NCBI GenBank assembly: GCA_021789935.1
Contig: JAJYIR010000014.1
Location: 1 to 38,339 of the forward strand
From: Nitrospirota bacterium
GTDB lineage: Bacteria; Nitrospirota; Thermodesulfovibrionia; Thermodesulfovibrionales; JdFR-88
Direction of reading: 5' to 3'
Length of the DNA stretch: 38,339 nucleotides
Shown here: in pieces, positions 4,455 through 36,093 of the stretch
Numbering within the stretch: position 1 is the first letter of the stretch
How the letters are laid out: each line of letters begins with the position of its first letter
Position numbers and translations under genes: made by a program
Notes under the pieces: model-generated
What the model saw: the letters and a program-made list of their open reading frames with translations, nothing else
What the model was told of the DNA's origin: nothing
Database searches by the model: none

Positions 4455-4484
4455 ATTGTAATCCACGGATGGACTTTTTTTCAA
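4455..4484 (-). promoter_or_regulatory. Promoter of purQ, leaderless type
   Basis: On the minus strand: TTGAAA (4484-4479), an 18-nt spacer, TACAAT (4460-4455), then 8 nt to the purQ ATG (4446). Both hexamers match 5 of 6 sigma-70 consensus positions. Transcription would start at or within about 2 nt of the start codon. Confidence 0.5.
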
Positions 4485-13211: not shown

Positions 13212-13499
13212 ATGCGGGAAAAAATTATTGACGTAAGGGAAATCCGGGCACTCGCAAAGAAGTTCAGTCCCGATGAAATCGAAAGGTGCATTGAACTGCA
13301 TCTGAGGGAAGAAAAACATAACTGCCCCCTGTCGGGCACAACAGAGCATATAATAAACGAACTTTCCAAGGCCGAATTTGTGAGAACACGCGTGGACAAA
13401 GGGGCGCGGCCGATGGATGCTGTCCGGGAGCTTGCGGAAAAGATACGCCGCTTTCAGCTTGACCCCGAAGGGAAAACAGAAAGACAAACAGGGGCCTGA
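13212..13499 (+). CDS. Small hypothetical protein
   Basis: 95 residues, charged and predicted cytosolic and helical, starting MREKIIDVREIRALAKKFS. A Cys sits in HNCPLSG in mid-protein; the C-terminus is hydrophilic. No family recognised. The ATG has a short purine tract (GGAAAG) just upstream and an AT-rich promoter-like region (TATATT, 13189-13194). Its codon use resembles neighbouring genes and the opposite-strand frames look like shadows, so it is probably real. It stands alone between the LysR gene and the DUF4149 gene. Confidence 0.6.
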   Translation: MREKIIDVREIRALAKKFSPDEIERCIELHLREEKHNCPLSGTTEHIINELSKAEFVRTRVDKGARPMDAVRELAEKIRRFQLDPEGKTERQTGA

Positions 13500-13538
13500 G
13501 GCGGGATGGTTTTTTTGCACATTTCCCGGCAGATTTTC

Positions 13539-13567
13539 TTGACATTTCCCCGCTTGGCCGGTATAAA
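13539..13567 (+). promoter_or_regulatory. Strong sigma-70 promoter of the DUF4149 gene, leaderless
   Basis: TTGACA (13539-13544), exactly 17 nt, TATAAA (13562-13567), then 6 nt and the ATG at 13574. The expected start of transcription coincides with the A of the ATG. There is no SD. Confidence 0.75.
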
Positions 13568-13573
13568 TAGGCA

Positions 13574-14026
13574 ATGGATTTCAGAGCCGTCTGGTCCGTC
13601 TTTTTCAATATATCGGTTGCCTTGTGGACCGGGGGAGTATGGATATTCACCTTCCTGGCCACGCCCGCCATCTTCAAGTCCTTTCCAAGGGACACGGCAA
13701 GCGGGATAGTCGACAAACTGTTTCCGCTTTATTTCCCTTACAACCTCCTCCTATCAGTTTTGGCCCTTGTCTTTTTCCTTGCCTCCGGCGGAAGCGGTGT
13801 TTCCCTTGCCCTGATTGCGGCGGCCGTGCTTACGAACCTTTTTATTGTTTTTGTGCTCTATCCTTCCATAAGGAAAACAAAAAGGCAGATATCCTCCTTT
13901 GAGAAAACGGAACCTTCCCTGCCCGCCAGAAAGCGGTTCAGCAGGATGCACGCCGTAAGCGCCGTCTTGAATCTGCTTCTGCTGGCCCTGGGGCTTGCAC
14001 TGATAATCATCCAGGCGGCCGGATGA
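13574..14026 (+). CDS. DUF4149 (TMEM205-like) integral membrane protein
   Basis: 150 residues with four hydrophobic helices at about 7-28 (VFFNISVALWTGGVWIFTFL), 52-70, 75-95 and 125-148. The first helix has the pattern seen in DUF4149 proteins, followed by FLATPAIFKSFP, and a charged loop (SIRKTKRQISSFEK) lies between the third and fourth helices. The biochemical role of the family is not established. A near-consensus promoter sits directly upstream with no leader. greA follows after 51 bp. Confidence 0.82.
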   Translation: MDFRAVWSVFFNISVALWTGGVWIFTFLATPAIFKSFPRDTASGIVDKLFPLYFPYNLLLSVLALVFFLASGGSGVSLALIAAAVLTNLFIVFVLYPSIRKTKRQISSFEKTEPSLPARKRFSRMHAVSAVLNLLLLALGLALIIIQAAG

Positions 14027-14041
14027 TTTTTTGAAAAAAAT

Positions 14042-14069
14042 TTGAAAAATGAGCTGCATATCTGATAAA
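14042..14069 (+). promoter_or_regulatory. Possible greA promoter, leaderless type
   Basis: TTGAAA (14042-14047), 16 nt, GATAAA (14064-14069, preceded by T and followed by T), then 8 nt to the greA ATG at 14078. The -10 matches 4 of 6 positions, so this is weaker than the promoter at 13539. No SD precedes the ATG. Confidence 0.35.
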
Positions 14070-14077
14070 TTTGAAAC

Positions 14078-14554
14078 ATGCTTGAAAAGTTCCCTATAAC
14101 TCCAGAGGGTTATAAAAAGTTGCGGGAGGAGCTGGAGAGGCTCCTCAAGGTCGAAAGGCCCCGGAACATAAAAGACATAGAAGAGGCCCGCGCCCACGGA
14201 GACCTATCCGAAAACGCGGAGTACGACGCCGCCAAGGCGCGGCAATCCTGGATAGAGGGCAGGATAGCGGATCTTAAACAGAAGGTTGCCCTGGCCCAGG
14301 TGATAGACCCGTCCAAGATAAACCAGAGCAAGGCCGCTTTTGGGGCCACCGTGAAGGTCCTGGACACCGTCGCGGATGCAGAGTACGTCTTTTTTCTTGT
14401 AGGCACCGATGAAGCCGATGCCAAGCAGGGCAGGATATCCATAAGCTCTCCGGTAGGAAGGGCGCTTCTTGGAAAAGAAGTTGGTGACACCGTCACAATA
14501 AAGGCCCCGGCCAGGACCATCGAGTACGAGATCCTTGAAGTCAACTTCTGCTGA
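14078..14554 (+). CDS. greA: Transcription elongation factor GreA
   Basis: 158 residues, the normal GreA length. The N-terminal coiled coil (~1-75) carries the catalytic tip GDLSENAEYDAAKARQ (~41-56), whose acidic residues coordinate Mg in the RNA polymerase secondary channel and stimulate cleavage of backtracked RNA. The C-terminal FKBP-like domain has SPVGRALLGKEVGD. No SD is visible; the start may be leaderless. The 3' end overlaps the pyrK start by 20 nt, tying greA to the pyrimidine genes. Confidence 0.97.
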   Translation: MLEKFPITPEGYKKLREELERLLKVERPRNIKDIEEARAHGDLSENAEYDAAKARQSWIEGRIADLKQKVALAQVIDPSKINQSKAAFGATVKVLDTVADAEYVFFLVGTDEADAKQGRISISSPVGRALLGKEVGDTVTIKAPARTIEYEILEVNFC

Positions 14555-15359
14555 CACCCGCCTTTTCAGAGCCATAGTTCAAACAAACACAAAATTAAAC
14601 GATTCGAATTTTATTTTGGGTTTTTTTGCCGCTGACGGTCCGCTCCCCGAGGCAAATCCCGGCCAGTTCTTCATGTTAGGGGTAAAAAACTGCGGAGACG
14701 ACCCTCTTTTAAAACGTCCTTTCTGCTATTTCAGAAAGAGGGGAAACACGCTTGAGATACTCTACCGCATTGTAGGCAAGATGACTTCCATCATGAAGGG
14801 GCTCAGGCCTGGAGATGAGGTCGAAATCCTTGGACCGCTCGGGAATGTTTACCCTGTCGAAGAGGTTTTTTTTGAGTGTAAAAAAACAGAAAAAACAGAA
14901 AAAACGAAAAAGACAAAAAACCCATTGGTCATTGCCGGGGGGACCGGAATAGCATCGGTCTATCCGCTTCTCGAAGGCCTTCCGGGAAGGGCCTTCCTCT
15001 TTTATGGCGGGCGCAGCAAAAAAGATGTTCTTTTGAGCAGGGAGCTGCGTGCGGTCTCTAAAAAATTTATTCCGGCAACCGATGACGGCTCCCTCGGTTT
15101 TAAGGGCACGTCGGTCGACGCGGCCAGGGATTTTTTAAACGGCAGGGCCCCGGATGATTTTGTCCTGTATGCCTGCGGGCCGAACGGCATGCTCAAGGCG
15201 GCAAGCGCGCTTGGCGTACAGGGCTATATCGCATCTGAGGAAAAAATGGCCTGCGGCATAGGGGTCTGCCTCGGATGCGCAGTAAGGACAAAAGACGGGT
15301 ACAAGAGGGCCTGCAAGGACGGGCCAGTCTTTAAAACGGGGGAACTCCTTTTTGACTGA
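14535..15359 (+). CDS. pyrK: Dihydroorotate dehydrogenase electron-transfer subunit PyrK
   Basis: 274 residues of the ferredoxin-reductase-like PyrK family. The N-terminal FAD barrel contains NPGQFFML and RPFCYFR; the NAD-binding half begins at VIAGGTGIASVYPLLEGL. The C-terminal 2Fe-2S cluster is C240-x4-C245-x2-C248-x11-C260. PyrK passes electrons from PyrD FMN to NAD+ in the class 1B enzyme. It starts at a TTG inside the greA end (20-nt overlap); later starts would truncate the FAD barrel. At ~115-127 a Lys/Thr repeat (KKTEKTEKTKKTK) from an A-rich tract is inserted between the FAD and NAD domains. pyrD follows 12 bp later. Confidence 0.93.
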   Translation: MKSTSADTRLFRAIVQTNTKLNDSNFILGFFAADGPLPEANPGQFFMLGVKNCGDDPLLKRPFCYFRKRGNTLEILYRIVGKMTSIMKGLRPGDEVEILGPLGNVYPVEEVFFECKKTEKTEKTKKTKNPLVIAGGTGIASVYPLLEGLPGRAFLFYGGRSKKDVLLSRELRAVSKKFIPATDDGSLGFKGTSVDAARDFLNGRAPDDFVLYACGPNGMLKAASALGVQGYIASEEKMACGIGVCLGCAVRTKDGYKRACKDGPVFKTGELLFD

Positions 15360-15371
15360 GAGATTTGTTCA

Positions 15372-16322
15372 GTGGTAGACAGGGGGAACAAGAACAAAAA
15401 GCTTGAAGTAAGGATCGGCGGGCTGAAACTCAAAAACCCGGTGATGACGGCATCCGGAACAGCGGGCTATGGGGCTGAGCTGGCGGAATTCTTTGACCTC
15501 TCGAAACTTGGCGCGATAGTCCTTAAAGGCATATCGCTGGTCCCCTGGCAGGGAAACCCGGCCCCCAGGATAACAGAGACCCGCTGCGGGATGATCAACT
15601 CCATTGGCCTCCAGAACGTGGGGCTTGACGCGTTCCTCAGAGAAAAACTCCCTTTTGCACGACAATGGGACGTGCCGGTTATCGCAAACATACTTGGCAC
15701 CAGCGCCACGGAATATACGAGACTTGCGAGCGCGCTGGAGGACGCGGGGGTCGAAGGCATAGAGCTGAACGTCTCCTGCCCCAACGTCAAGGAAGGCGGC
15801 ATCGCCTTTGGACTCAATCTCAAAAGCTTCGCCGGGCTCATACGGGCGGTCAGAAAAAAGGTAAAAAACCCGGTGCTGATAGTAAAACTCTCTCCGGGCG
15901 CTCCCAGCATAGAGGAATTTTCCCGCGCCGCGGAGGCCGAGGGGGCGGACGCCATCTCCCTTATAAACTCCATCCCAGCCATGGCCATAGACGTAAATAC
16001 CCGAAGGCCGCTTATTAAAAATGTTATCGGCGGGCTCTCCGGGCCGGCCATTAAGCCCATAGCAGTGAGAATGGTCTATCAGGCGTCAAAGTCCGTTAAA
16101 ACCATTCCCATTATCGGCATGGGGGGGATAATAACCGGAGAAGATGCGGTTGAGTTCATGCTGGCCGGGGCCACCGCCGTGGCCGTTGGGACCGCCACCT
16201 TCATGGACCCCATGGCCGCGTTGAAAGTTGTCGAGGGCATTGGGTCCTGGATGGAACGCCAGGGGATAAAAAGCGCCTCGCACATAACAGGCGCGATGCT
16301 CTCTGATATCAGAAGAAAATAA
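15372..16322 (+). CDS. pyrD: Dihydroorotate dehydrogenase B, catalytic subunit PyrD
   Basis: 316-residue FMN TIM-barrel enzyme that oxidises dihydroorotate to orotate in pyrimidine synthesis. Seen: ASGTAGYGAELAEFFD, NSIGLQNVGLDAF, NVSCPNVKEGG with catalytic Cys ~136 (Cys marks class 1), VKLSPG, INSIPAMAID, GLSGPAIKPIA and GMGGIITGEDAVEFM with GTATFMDP. The Cys and the adjacent PyrK identify the NAD-linked 1B heterotetramer. It begins with GTG at 15372. A 38-bp A-rich tract of AAAAAGACA units separates it from the next gene. Confidence 0.96.
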   Translation: MVDRGNKNKKLEVRIGGLKLKNPVMTASGTAGYGAELAEFFDLSKLGAIVLKGISLVPWQGNPAPRITETRCGMINSIGLQNVGLDAFLREKLPFARQWDVPVIANILGTSATEYTRLASALEDAGVEGIELNVSCPNVKEGGIAFGLNLKSFAGLIRAVRKKVKNPVLIVKLSPGAPSIEEFSRAAEAEGADAISLINSIPAMAIDVNTRRPLIKNVIGGLSGPAIKPIAVRMVYQASKSVKTIPIIGMGGIITGEDAVEFMLAGATAVAVGTATFMDPMAALKVVEGIGSWMERQGIKSASHITGAMLSDIRRK

Positions 16323-16360
16323 AAAAATAAAAAGACAAAAAGACAAAAAAGACAAGAAAG

Positions 16361-17607: not shown

Positions 17608-17635
17608 ATTATACCGCCATTGCATGGACAGTCAA
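17608..17635 (-). promoter_or_regulatory. Sigma-70 promoter of the DUF3568-like lipoprotein
   Basis: On the minus strand: TTGACT (17635-17630), 16 nt, perfect TATAAT (17613-17608), transcription starting near 17601, then AAGGAGG and the start codon. It lies in the 83-bp gap after the Mur ligase stop, so the lipoprotein can be transcribed on its own. Confidence 0.7.
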
Positions 17636-19998: not shown

Positions 19999-20625
19999 TC
20001 AGGACTTTTTTACAAAATCTCCGAAGGCTCTGAGGATTTTCAGCCCCATCGCCTGGCTTTTCTCCGGATGAAACTGCACGGCAAAGACATTGTCCTTCCA
20101 GACCATGGAAGTATACTCTATCCCATACTCCGTGGTTGCTGCAATTATGGAGGGGTCTTCCGGGGCAACGTAGTAGGAATGGACAAAATAAAAGCTGGCT
20201 TCATCGGGAATACCTGAAAGGACCGGCGGACGGTTTTTTTTGCTTTTTATGCTTATGGTGTTCCAGCCCATGTGCGGGACTTTAAGTCCGGAATTCTCCG
20301 GGAACCGCAGGACTTTTCCCTTAAAGACCCCCAGACCCTTGTGTACGCCAAACTCGTGGGATTCACTGAAGAGCAACTGGAGCCCCAGGCAGATGCCAAG
20401 AAAGGGTTTCCCGGCCTCTATGGATTTTATGATCGGCCCGGCGAGTCCCAGCTCTTCCAGGTTTCTCATGCAGTCCCTGAACGCCCCAACGCCTGGAAGC
20501 ACTACTGCACTGGCCTCCAGGACCTCGGAAGGGGTGTTCACTATCCGGGCCTCAATGCCTACTTTGGCAAACCCCTTCTGAACGCTCCTCAGGTTCCCCA
20601 TGCCGTAGTCGATTATAGCGAGCAT
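19999..20625 (-). CDS. hisH: Imidazole glycerol phosphate synthase glutaminase subunit HisH
   Basis: 208 residues, normal length. IIDYGMGNLRSV at the N-terminus, oxyanion and nucleophile region VLPGVGAFRDCM and GICLGLQLLF (Cys79), and the catalytic His/Glu in QFHPEKSQ. It releases ammonia from glutamine for HisF in histidine synthesis. No hisF or hisA is adjacent; it instead leads a minus-strand unit with mtgA and the Mur ligase. A perfect TATAAT ends 8 nt before the ATG and no SD is present, so the mRNA is probably leaderless or nearly so. Confidence 0.96.
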   Translation of the reverse strand: MLAIIDYGMGNLRSVQKGFAKVGIEARIVNTPSEVLEASAVVLPGVGAFRDCMRNLEELGLAGPIIKSIEAGKPFLGICLGLQLLFSESHEFGVHKGLGVFKGKVLRFPENSGLKVPHMGWNTISIKSKKNRPPVLSGIPDEASFYFVHSYYVAPEDPSIIAATTEYGIEYTSMVWKDNVFAVQFHPEKSQAMGLKILRAFGDFVKKS

Positions 20626-20633
20626 GATGACTA

Positions 20634-20639
20634 ATTATA
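20634..20639 (-). promoter_or_regulatory. hisH -10 element, leaderless type
   Basis: TATAAT on the minus strand at 20639-20634, 8 nt before the hisH ATG (20625). No -35 match at 16-18 nt spacing. It is divergent from the cbbQ -10 element about 95 bp away. Confidence 0.55.
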
Positions 20640-20731: not shown

Positions 20732-20737
20732 TATAAT
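20732..20737 (+). promoter_or_regulatory. cbbQ -10 element, leaderless type
   Basis: A perfect TATAAT with 6 nt to the ATG at 20744. No SD and no -35 within 16-18 nt. The predicted transcription start is at the ATG. Confidence 0.55.
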
Positions 20738-26891: not shown

Positions 26892-27509
26892 TCAACCCGG
26901 CGTTCGTCCGCGCTTTATGTATTTATAGAAGAAAAAGAAAAAGATGGAGACGACGACAAGCGCCACGGCCGCGTCTCCGATCCTGTATATGTTTTTTGAA
27001 AGCGCATTTATGCTGCTGCCTCCCGCATACCCGATGCTTACCATGATGGACATTGTAAGGAGCGCGGAGGCCATATCGGCGGCGATGAATTTCAGGGAGG
27101 GCATCTTCAGGGTGCCGCAGGCCAGGAAAATCTGCGCGCGGAGGCCCACAAGCTGCCTGCCCACGAGCAGGAAAAAAATCCCCCACCTGGAGAACTTCTG
27201 CTCCAGTTTCAAGAGGCGCTCCTGGGAGAGTATCTTGCTGAACCTCTTTGCGCCAGTCACCTTCGTGCCGTACTTTTTCCCTATGTGGAAGAGGAAAAAA
27301 TCCATGGAGAGAAGGCCTGCGTACGATGCGATGAGCCCGGGCAACGGCCTGACTATTCCAGTGGCTATGAAAATGCCGCACAGGATAAGGGTGGCATCCT
27401 CCGGGAACGGCAGGCCGAGCCCTCCAAGCACAAGGAGGACAAAAAGCCCGACGGCCGGAAAATGGGCCATTATATACGGAATCGGGTTTAAACTTGCCAG
27501 CAAAGCCAT
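26892..27509 (-). CDS. DedA-family membrane protein
   Basis: 205 residues from the ATG at 27509 (a TTG three codons upstream is possible). Hydrophobic helices flank the DedA motifs: GGLGLPFPEDATLILCGIF near the N-terminus, FLFHIGKKYG, and GRQLVGLRAQIFLACGTLKM, the amphipathic re-entrant part with conserved Arg. Members act in lipid (undecaprenyl phosphate or phospholipid) flipping and proton-motive-force homeostasis. The last helix (VVVSIFFFFFYKYIKRGR) is followed by a basic tail. No SD is visible. It is alone between two gaps, in an envelope-related minus-strand cluster. Confidence 0.88.
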   Translation of the reverse strand: MALLASLNPIPYIMAHFPAVGLFVLLVLGGLGLPFPEDATLILCGIFIATGIVRPLPGLIASYAGLLSMDFFLFHIGKKYGTKVTGAKRFSKILSQERLLKLEQKFSRWGIFFLLVGRQLVGLRAQIFLACGTLKMPSLKFIAADMASALLTMSIMVSIGYAGGSSINALSKNIYRIGDAAVALVVVSIFFFFFYKYIKRGRTPG

Positions 27510-27552
27510 AAGTGTCAATTAAGATAGCACAGGCGCCAGGCTGCAGGAAACC

Positions 27553-36064: not shown

Positions 36065-36093
36065 ATAATAGCGAAAGGCCTTGTTTTTGTAAA
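36065..36093 (-). promoter_or_regulatory. nadE promoter
   Basis: Minus strand: TTTACA (36093-36088), 17 nt, TATTAT (36070-36065), each 5 of 6 matches, then 12 nt to the ATG (36052). The leader would be about 5-6 nt, too short for a normal SD. Confidence 0.6.

Follow-up and report, generated by a model that had tools for sequence, protein, structure and literature searches.

Start-adjacent -10 boxes and candidate leaderless genes, including a conserved DUF4149 gene, in an uncultured Nitrospirota lineage

Bacterial leaderless genes with a -10 box some 12 nt ahead of the start codon are already well described. In TA-led genes such a -10-like signal, at a distance of about 12 bp, takes the place of an SD site, and 207 of 953 bacterial genomes were reported to have such genes (Zheng et al. 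2011, PMC3160421). In the -10-motif ORFs of Deinococcus-Thermus the adjoining -10 is reported to act as a promoter for leaderless expression, which is raised by a -35 region (PMC12340547, Life Sci Alliance 2025), and GeneMarkS-2 (Lomsadze 2018, as quoted in PMC9581028) defines a leaderless class of bacteria. The candidates considered here resemble the TA-led genes of PMC3160421 in their TANNNT/TATAAT-like -10 boxes, the TAtaaT pattern of the medium-GC genomes in that survey also being present, and resemble those of Deinococcus-Thermus in that a -10 region adjoins the ORF. They differ in that Nitrospirae are not among the groups listed in PMC3160421, and in extent, with about 30% of ORFs involved in Deinococcus-Thermus (PMC12340547) compared with a smaller detectable minority in the present genome. 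The text of PMC12340547 does not name Nitrospirota; its domain-wide figure S7 could include the phylum, and the GeneMarkS-2 surveys, which span thousands of species (PMC9581028), may do so. A search of the literature outside most subscription journals turned up no study of leaderless genes in Nitrospirota, where they seem to be little described.

The DNA analysed (the window) is a stretch of 38,339 bases, the first part (1-38339) of a contig of 65,172 bases, from a metagenome-assembled genome (MAG) of 2.47 Mb in 60 contigs. The sequence-only reading had described, ahead of one gene, a near-perfect promoter of the form TTGACA-17-TATAAA-6-ATG and had taken the gene to be leaderless. Positions 13539-13576, read directly, hold exactly TTGACA, 17 nt, TATAAA, 6 nt and an ATG at 13574, and the gene encodes a DUF4149 protein. 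The features of the locus are as follows:

13539-13544, plus strand: -35 element TTGACA, matching the consensus at 6/6 positions and identical in the congeners G002 and G003
13562-13567, plus strand: -10 element TATAAA (5/6), 17 nt past the -35 element and 6 nt ahead of the ATG
13568-13570, plus strand: in-frame stop codon TAG inside the 6-nt gap, shutting the frame directly upstream of the start
13574, plus strand: predicted transcription start, the A of the ATG, from the position of the -10 element
13574-14026, plus strand: gene for a DUF4149 membrane protein of 150 aa (Pfam PF13664, E 1.5e-17; alignment)

When both strands of the window were scanned for sites with at least 11/12 bases matching TTGACA/TATAAT at a spacer of 16-18, two were found, one being the DUF4149 promoter; 30 dinucleotide shuffles averaged 0.13 such sites and never had more than 1. 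The description of the promoter as near-perfect is therefore borne out, and sigma-70-type features (-35 and -10 elements at 16-18 nt spacing) are present and kept in the congeners. A promoter scanner requiring T as the sixth -10 base omits the site, where that base is A. The other near-perfect site, TTGACT-16-TATAAT (17608-17635, minus strand), lies ahead of an SD-led DUF3568 gene (17590), whose layout of promoter, leader, GGAGG and ATG makes a contrast with that of DUF4149.

The start codon of DUF4149 is secure. The frame is shut by a TAG 6 nt ahead of ATG 13574, and moving the start to the next in-frame candidate, TTG 13622, which encodes the invariant Leu17 of the conserved core, would lose residues 1-16; no start but 13574 keeps them. 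A start further downstream on grounds of conservation, which the sequence-only reading had named as a thing to check, is thus excluded, and a common cause of false leaderless calls is removed. The upstream region has no SD 5-mer and pairs weakly with the anti-SD ACCUCCUUU (-3.9 kcal/mol, compared with -7.8 to -11.9 kcal/mol for three SD-led genes); the anti-SD used is that given for the class Thermodesulfovibrionia (PMC10783764) rather than one from the MAG's own 16S, a gene which was not found in the MAG. DUF4149 thus combines a -10-like hexamer at -12 to -7, a certain start and no SD site, as in TA-led genes.

Comparison with two genomes of the same genus (G002 and G003) further supports the leaderless reading. 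G002 has TTGACA-17-TATAAA-6-ATG and G003 has TTGACA-17-TATATA-6-ATG (-10 match 4/6), each likewise with an in-frame stop 6 nt ahead of the ATG. The proteins begin MDFR in the window, and MVTSGDFR and MVTSWDFR in G002 and G003, respectively, a difference of four codons (12 coding bases) that has left the distance from promoter to ATG unaltered.

The gene is present in 16 of 61 genomes searched, and a hexamer with at least 5/6 matches at a gap of 5-8 nt is found in 2/6 genomes of family f1, 2/2 each of f12 and f13 and 1/1 of f8, so that the -10-6-ATG arrangement recurs in other families. Family f3 has it in 0/3, one genome having a gap of 9, and f4 in 0/2, with an SD motif in both genomes. Counting against the leaderless reading are three genomes of the window's own family (G005, G007 and G008) in which the DUF4149 start is without an adjacent -10 box, an SD-like motif at the start in G005, and the range of -10-to-start gaps, from 5 to 8 nt, within f12.

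The named relatives closest to the protein come from MAGs whose labels are Nitrospirae, Nitrospiraceae, Thermodesulfovibrionales or Thermodesulfovibrio, at 84% and 74% identity for the nearest two; from these labels the window's genome is taken to be a Nitrospirota MAG, probably near Thermodesulfovibrionales. There are 29 named loci, 23 of them Nitrospirota by title; one (L094) was dropped as it had no in-frame start and the window was added, again making 23. Among these 23 (window included), at least 5/6 bases of TATAAT lie exactly 6 nt ahead of the start in 10 and at a gap of 5-8 nt in 13, whereas hexamers starting at control positions -50 to -21 reach the same match in 9/690 slots. Between the 13 carriers, ungapped pairwise identity over the 36 bases from -50 to -15 is 14-53%, so the box has not been kept by mere relatedness; the 23 loci do, however, overlap the 61-genome search and are related to one another, and so do not amount to 23 separate events. 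The six other loci (labelled Geobacter, Geotalea, Geobacteraceae, Deltaproteobacteria and Deferrisomatales) have an adjacent -10 box in 0/6 and an SD motif in 6/6.

The genome-wide search for start-adjacent -10 boxes that the sequence-only reading had proposed was run on 746,793 of the 2,471,817 bases (30%) of the window's own genome. Genes were called with a home-made coding-score finder blind to upstream sequence, which in one of five E. coli stretches found 38/41 annotated CDS, with the annotated start in 33/38. Unit-first genes were those that diverge from their neighbour or follow a gene on the same strand at a distance of 30 nt or more; an adjacent -10 box was a hexamer beginning at -14 to -11 with at least 5/6 matches to TATAAT, A2 and T6 being required; genes at contig edges were left out of all position counts. 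Among 392 unit-first genes, 38 have such a box compared with 8.0 in shuffles and 8.6 in an upstream control, while the 221 operon-internal genes have 0 where 2.5 were expected. DUF4149 is itself absent from the 38 because its sixth -10 base is A. The congeners behave similarly (G002, 16 vs 2.5 expected in 143 unit-first genes; G003, 6 vs 1.6 in 60), whereas E. coli shows no peak (2 vs 2.6 in 137).

Across the three genomes an SD 5-mer is found in 0/58 genes with an adjacent -10 box, compared with 139/537 without one (Fisher 1e-7), and a -35-like hexamer at a spacer of 16-18 gives 26 hits in the 58 genes and 65 in the 537 others, hits rather than genes being counted, such that one gene may score twice. 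The absence of SD motifs, the excess of -35-like hexamers and the restriction to first genes are typical of promoters rather than of AT-rich start contexts. The suggestion that leaderless initiation is common in this organism is sound in essence, but its extent is better put as a sizeable minority: the excess that can be measured at the leaderless position amounts to about 7-8% of unit-first genes, and an SD motif is present in 81/392 (21%).

The contrast weakens with several candidate starts per gene (55 vs 31.6, with 20-40 in displaced windows) and with a loose -10 definition (91 vs 82.8, range 70-92; the excess is not clear), and start refinement, intended for sensitivity, lifted the background more than the signal, so the true leaderless fraction is uncertain. 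A positive control, albeit a weak one, came from the Rhodococcus jostii plasmid pRHL1 (five stretches of 50 kb): strict TATAAT gave 1 vs 0.2-0.3, the measure being blunt at 66% GC, loose TANNNT gave 6 vs 1.4, and several starts with another loose definition gave 19 vs 8.0. Within the order, an excess is present in G022 (15 vs 4.2-5.3), G031 (13 vs 3.1-4.6) and G015 (17 vs 4.9-5.7), while G025 shows little (9 vs 4.2-6.3) and none with several starts per gene. Three genomes from other Nitrospirota classes have 3, 2 and 1 hits vs 0.7-1.1, 0.6 and 0-0.1, respectively, all small counts. In ortholog heads, comprising only 38 aligned pairs, an adjacent -10 box is kept in 6/8, far hits in 1/8 and hits at -18 to -15 in 2/2, which is suggestive of better retention of adjacent boxes than of far hits.

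Five further genes in the window had been proposed as companions of DUF4149, four as leaderless and one, nadE, with a leader of about 5 nt. Their features are:

14042-14071, plus strand: greA promoter TTGAAA-18-TAAATT, 6 nt ahead of ATG 14078; block kept in G002 and G003
14078-14554, plus strand: greA, a candidate leaderless gene (profile matches, GreA per NCBIfam; conservation)
20634-20639, minus strand: hisH -10 element TATAAT, 8 nt ahead of ATG 20625; conserved in G002 and G003
19999-20625, minus strand: hisH (TIGR01855)
20732-20737, plus strand: cbbQ -10 element TATAAT, 6 nt ahead of ATG 20744; not kept at 5/6 in G003
4455-4484, minus strand: purQ promoter TTGAAA-18-TACAAT, 8 nt ahead of ATG 4446
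36065-36093, minus strand: nadE promoter TTTACA-17-TATTAT, 12 nt ahead of ATG 36052; a short leader, not strictly leaderless

NCBIfam confirms the names PurQ, NAD+ synthase, HisH and GreA, and that of cbbQ is based on Pfam CbbQ_C. The proposal holds up for greA and hisH, which have adjacent -10 boxes in both congeners examined: TAAATT-6-ATG with TTGAAA-like bases upstream is kept at greA in all three species, and TATAAT lies 8-9 nt from the ATG of hisH in the congeners. At nadE, TTTACA-17-TAT(T/G)AT and a gap of 11-12 nt are kept in three species, a spacing which would give the leader of about 5 nt that had been claimed. At cbbQ the -10 box is not kept at 5/6 in G003, and an A/G-rich stretch upstream of that box in the window pairs with the anti-SD at -8.5 kcal/mol. 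No purQ ortholog was found in the congener stretches examined, and hisH upstream regions at 29 loci across the phylum, compared by eye, reveal no general rule.

For greA (14030-14078 in the window, and loci L117-L146), a GATAAA-type box has been retained close to the start at 9/11 loci in the window's family (TAAA.T hexamer, gap 6-10 nt), while many loci in other families of the order have an SD motif and an upstream block unlike that of the window, both assessments being by eye. It thus seems that greA changes mode between families, with an adjacent -10 box in most of the window's family and SD-led initiation in many others. SD-led genes were also said to coexist with leaderless ones in the window, and do so, with anti-SD pairing of -11.9 kcal/mol for LysR (ATG 12136) and -8.9 kcal/mol for cyclophilin (ATG 36651); the ordinary anti-SD of the class Thermodesulfovibrionia (ACCUCCUUU) means that the two modes can coexist.

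The direct observations at DUF4149 are a promoter-like sequence, a fixed distance to a secure start and conservation, together with the position-specific excess in the genome. A -10 box usually lies at a characteristic distance from the transcription start. We infer, and regard as very likely, that a sigma-70-type promoter of its own drives DUF4149, with a -10 element ending 6 nt before the start codon; RNA synthesis would begin at the A of the ATG or within 1-2 bases of it, giving an mRNA with neither 5' leader nor SD site. The ribosome would load directly on the 5'-terminal AUG, as in those leaderless mRNAs that have been studied, and the same arrangement would serve a sizeable minority of unit-first genes beside those that are SD-led.

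The position of the RNA 5' end is where another reading comes closest. A very short leader of 1-5 nt, likewise without an SD site, would agree with the 5-8 nt range of -10-to-start gaps among candidates in this genome and its relatives, and with the retention of the longer gap at nadE; for DUF4149 it appears rather unlikely, since a gap of exactly 6 nt in 10/23 loci agrees with RNA synthesis beginning on the A of the ATG. That the gene is instead read mainly from a leadered mRNA begun upstream, at a distal promoter or by read-through, the promoter at the ATG being minor or silent, is improbable. A same-strand 95-aa frame (13212-13499; no Pfam match) does end 74 nt ahead of the ATG, and the scan of the window shows no terminator on the plus strand from 13500 to 13573, but such an mRNA would offer no SD site, and the exact conservation of promoter and gap against the N-terminal indel also tells against this reading. 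Read-through from this frame could, nevertheless, add leadered mRNA besides a leaderless one. Chance occurrence of an AT-rich hexamer at this distance can be given very little credence: some 8 such hits are expected per 392 unit-first genes, but a joint 11/12 match with an ideal spacer is rare, as the shuffled windows show, and here it is conserved.

It may be, as a tentative proposal to which we give somewhat less than even weight, that leaderless initiation is old and selectively kept for particular genes around Thermodesulfovibrionales, with the DUF4149 -10 box fixed 6 nt from the ATG while other upstream bases turned over, and with greA switching between families. Leader loss in Nitrospirota would then be a gene-specific regulatory trait rather than noise. 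The analysis gives an uncultured lineage of this phylum, unnamed in the list of the 2011 survey, a concrete set of candidate leaderless genes whose anatomy is conserved; for MAGs of this kind, start calling should not rely on SD-only models, and the paired SD-led and leaderless orthologs of greA and DUF4149 are offered for the study of leader gain and loss.

Some other features of the window may be recorded. Within 27470-27518, the probable start of the VTT-domain gene is ATG 27509 rather than 27470; this upstream ATG is in frame, the N-terminus from it is conserved in G002 and G003, and a TATCTT box lies about 11 nt ahead of it. Of two A-rich runs, that at 14877-14922 is a lysine-rich insert within a PyrK-like frame (14616-15359), and that at 16320-16360 is a spacer between genes.
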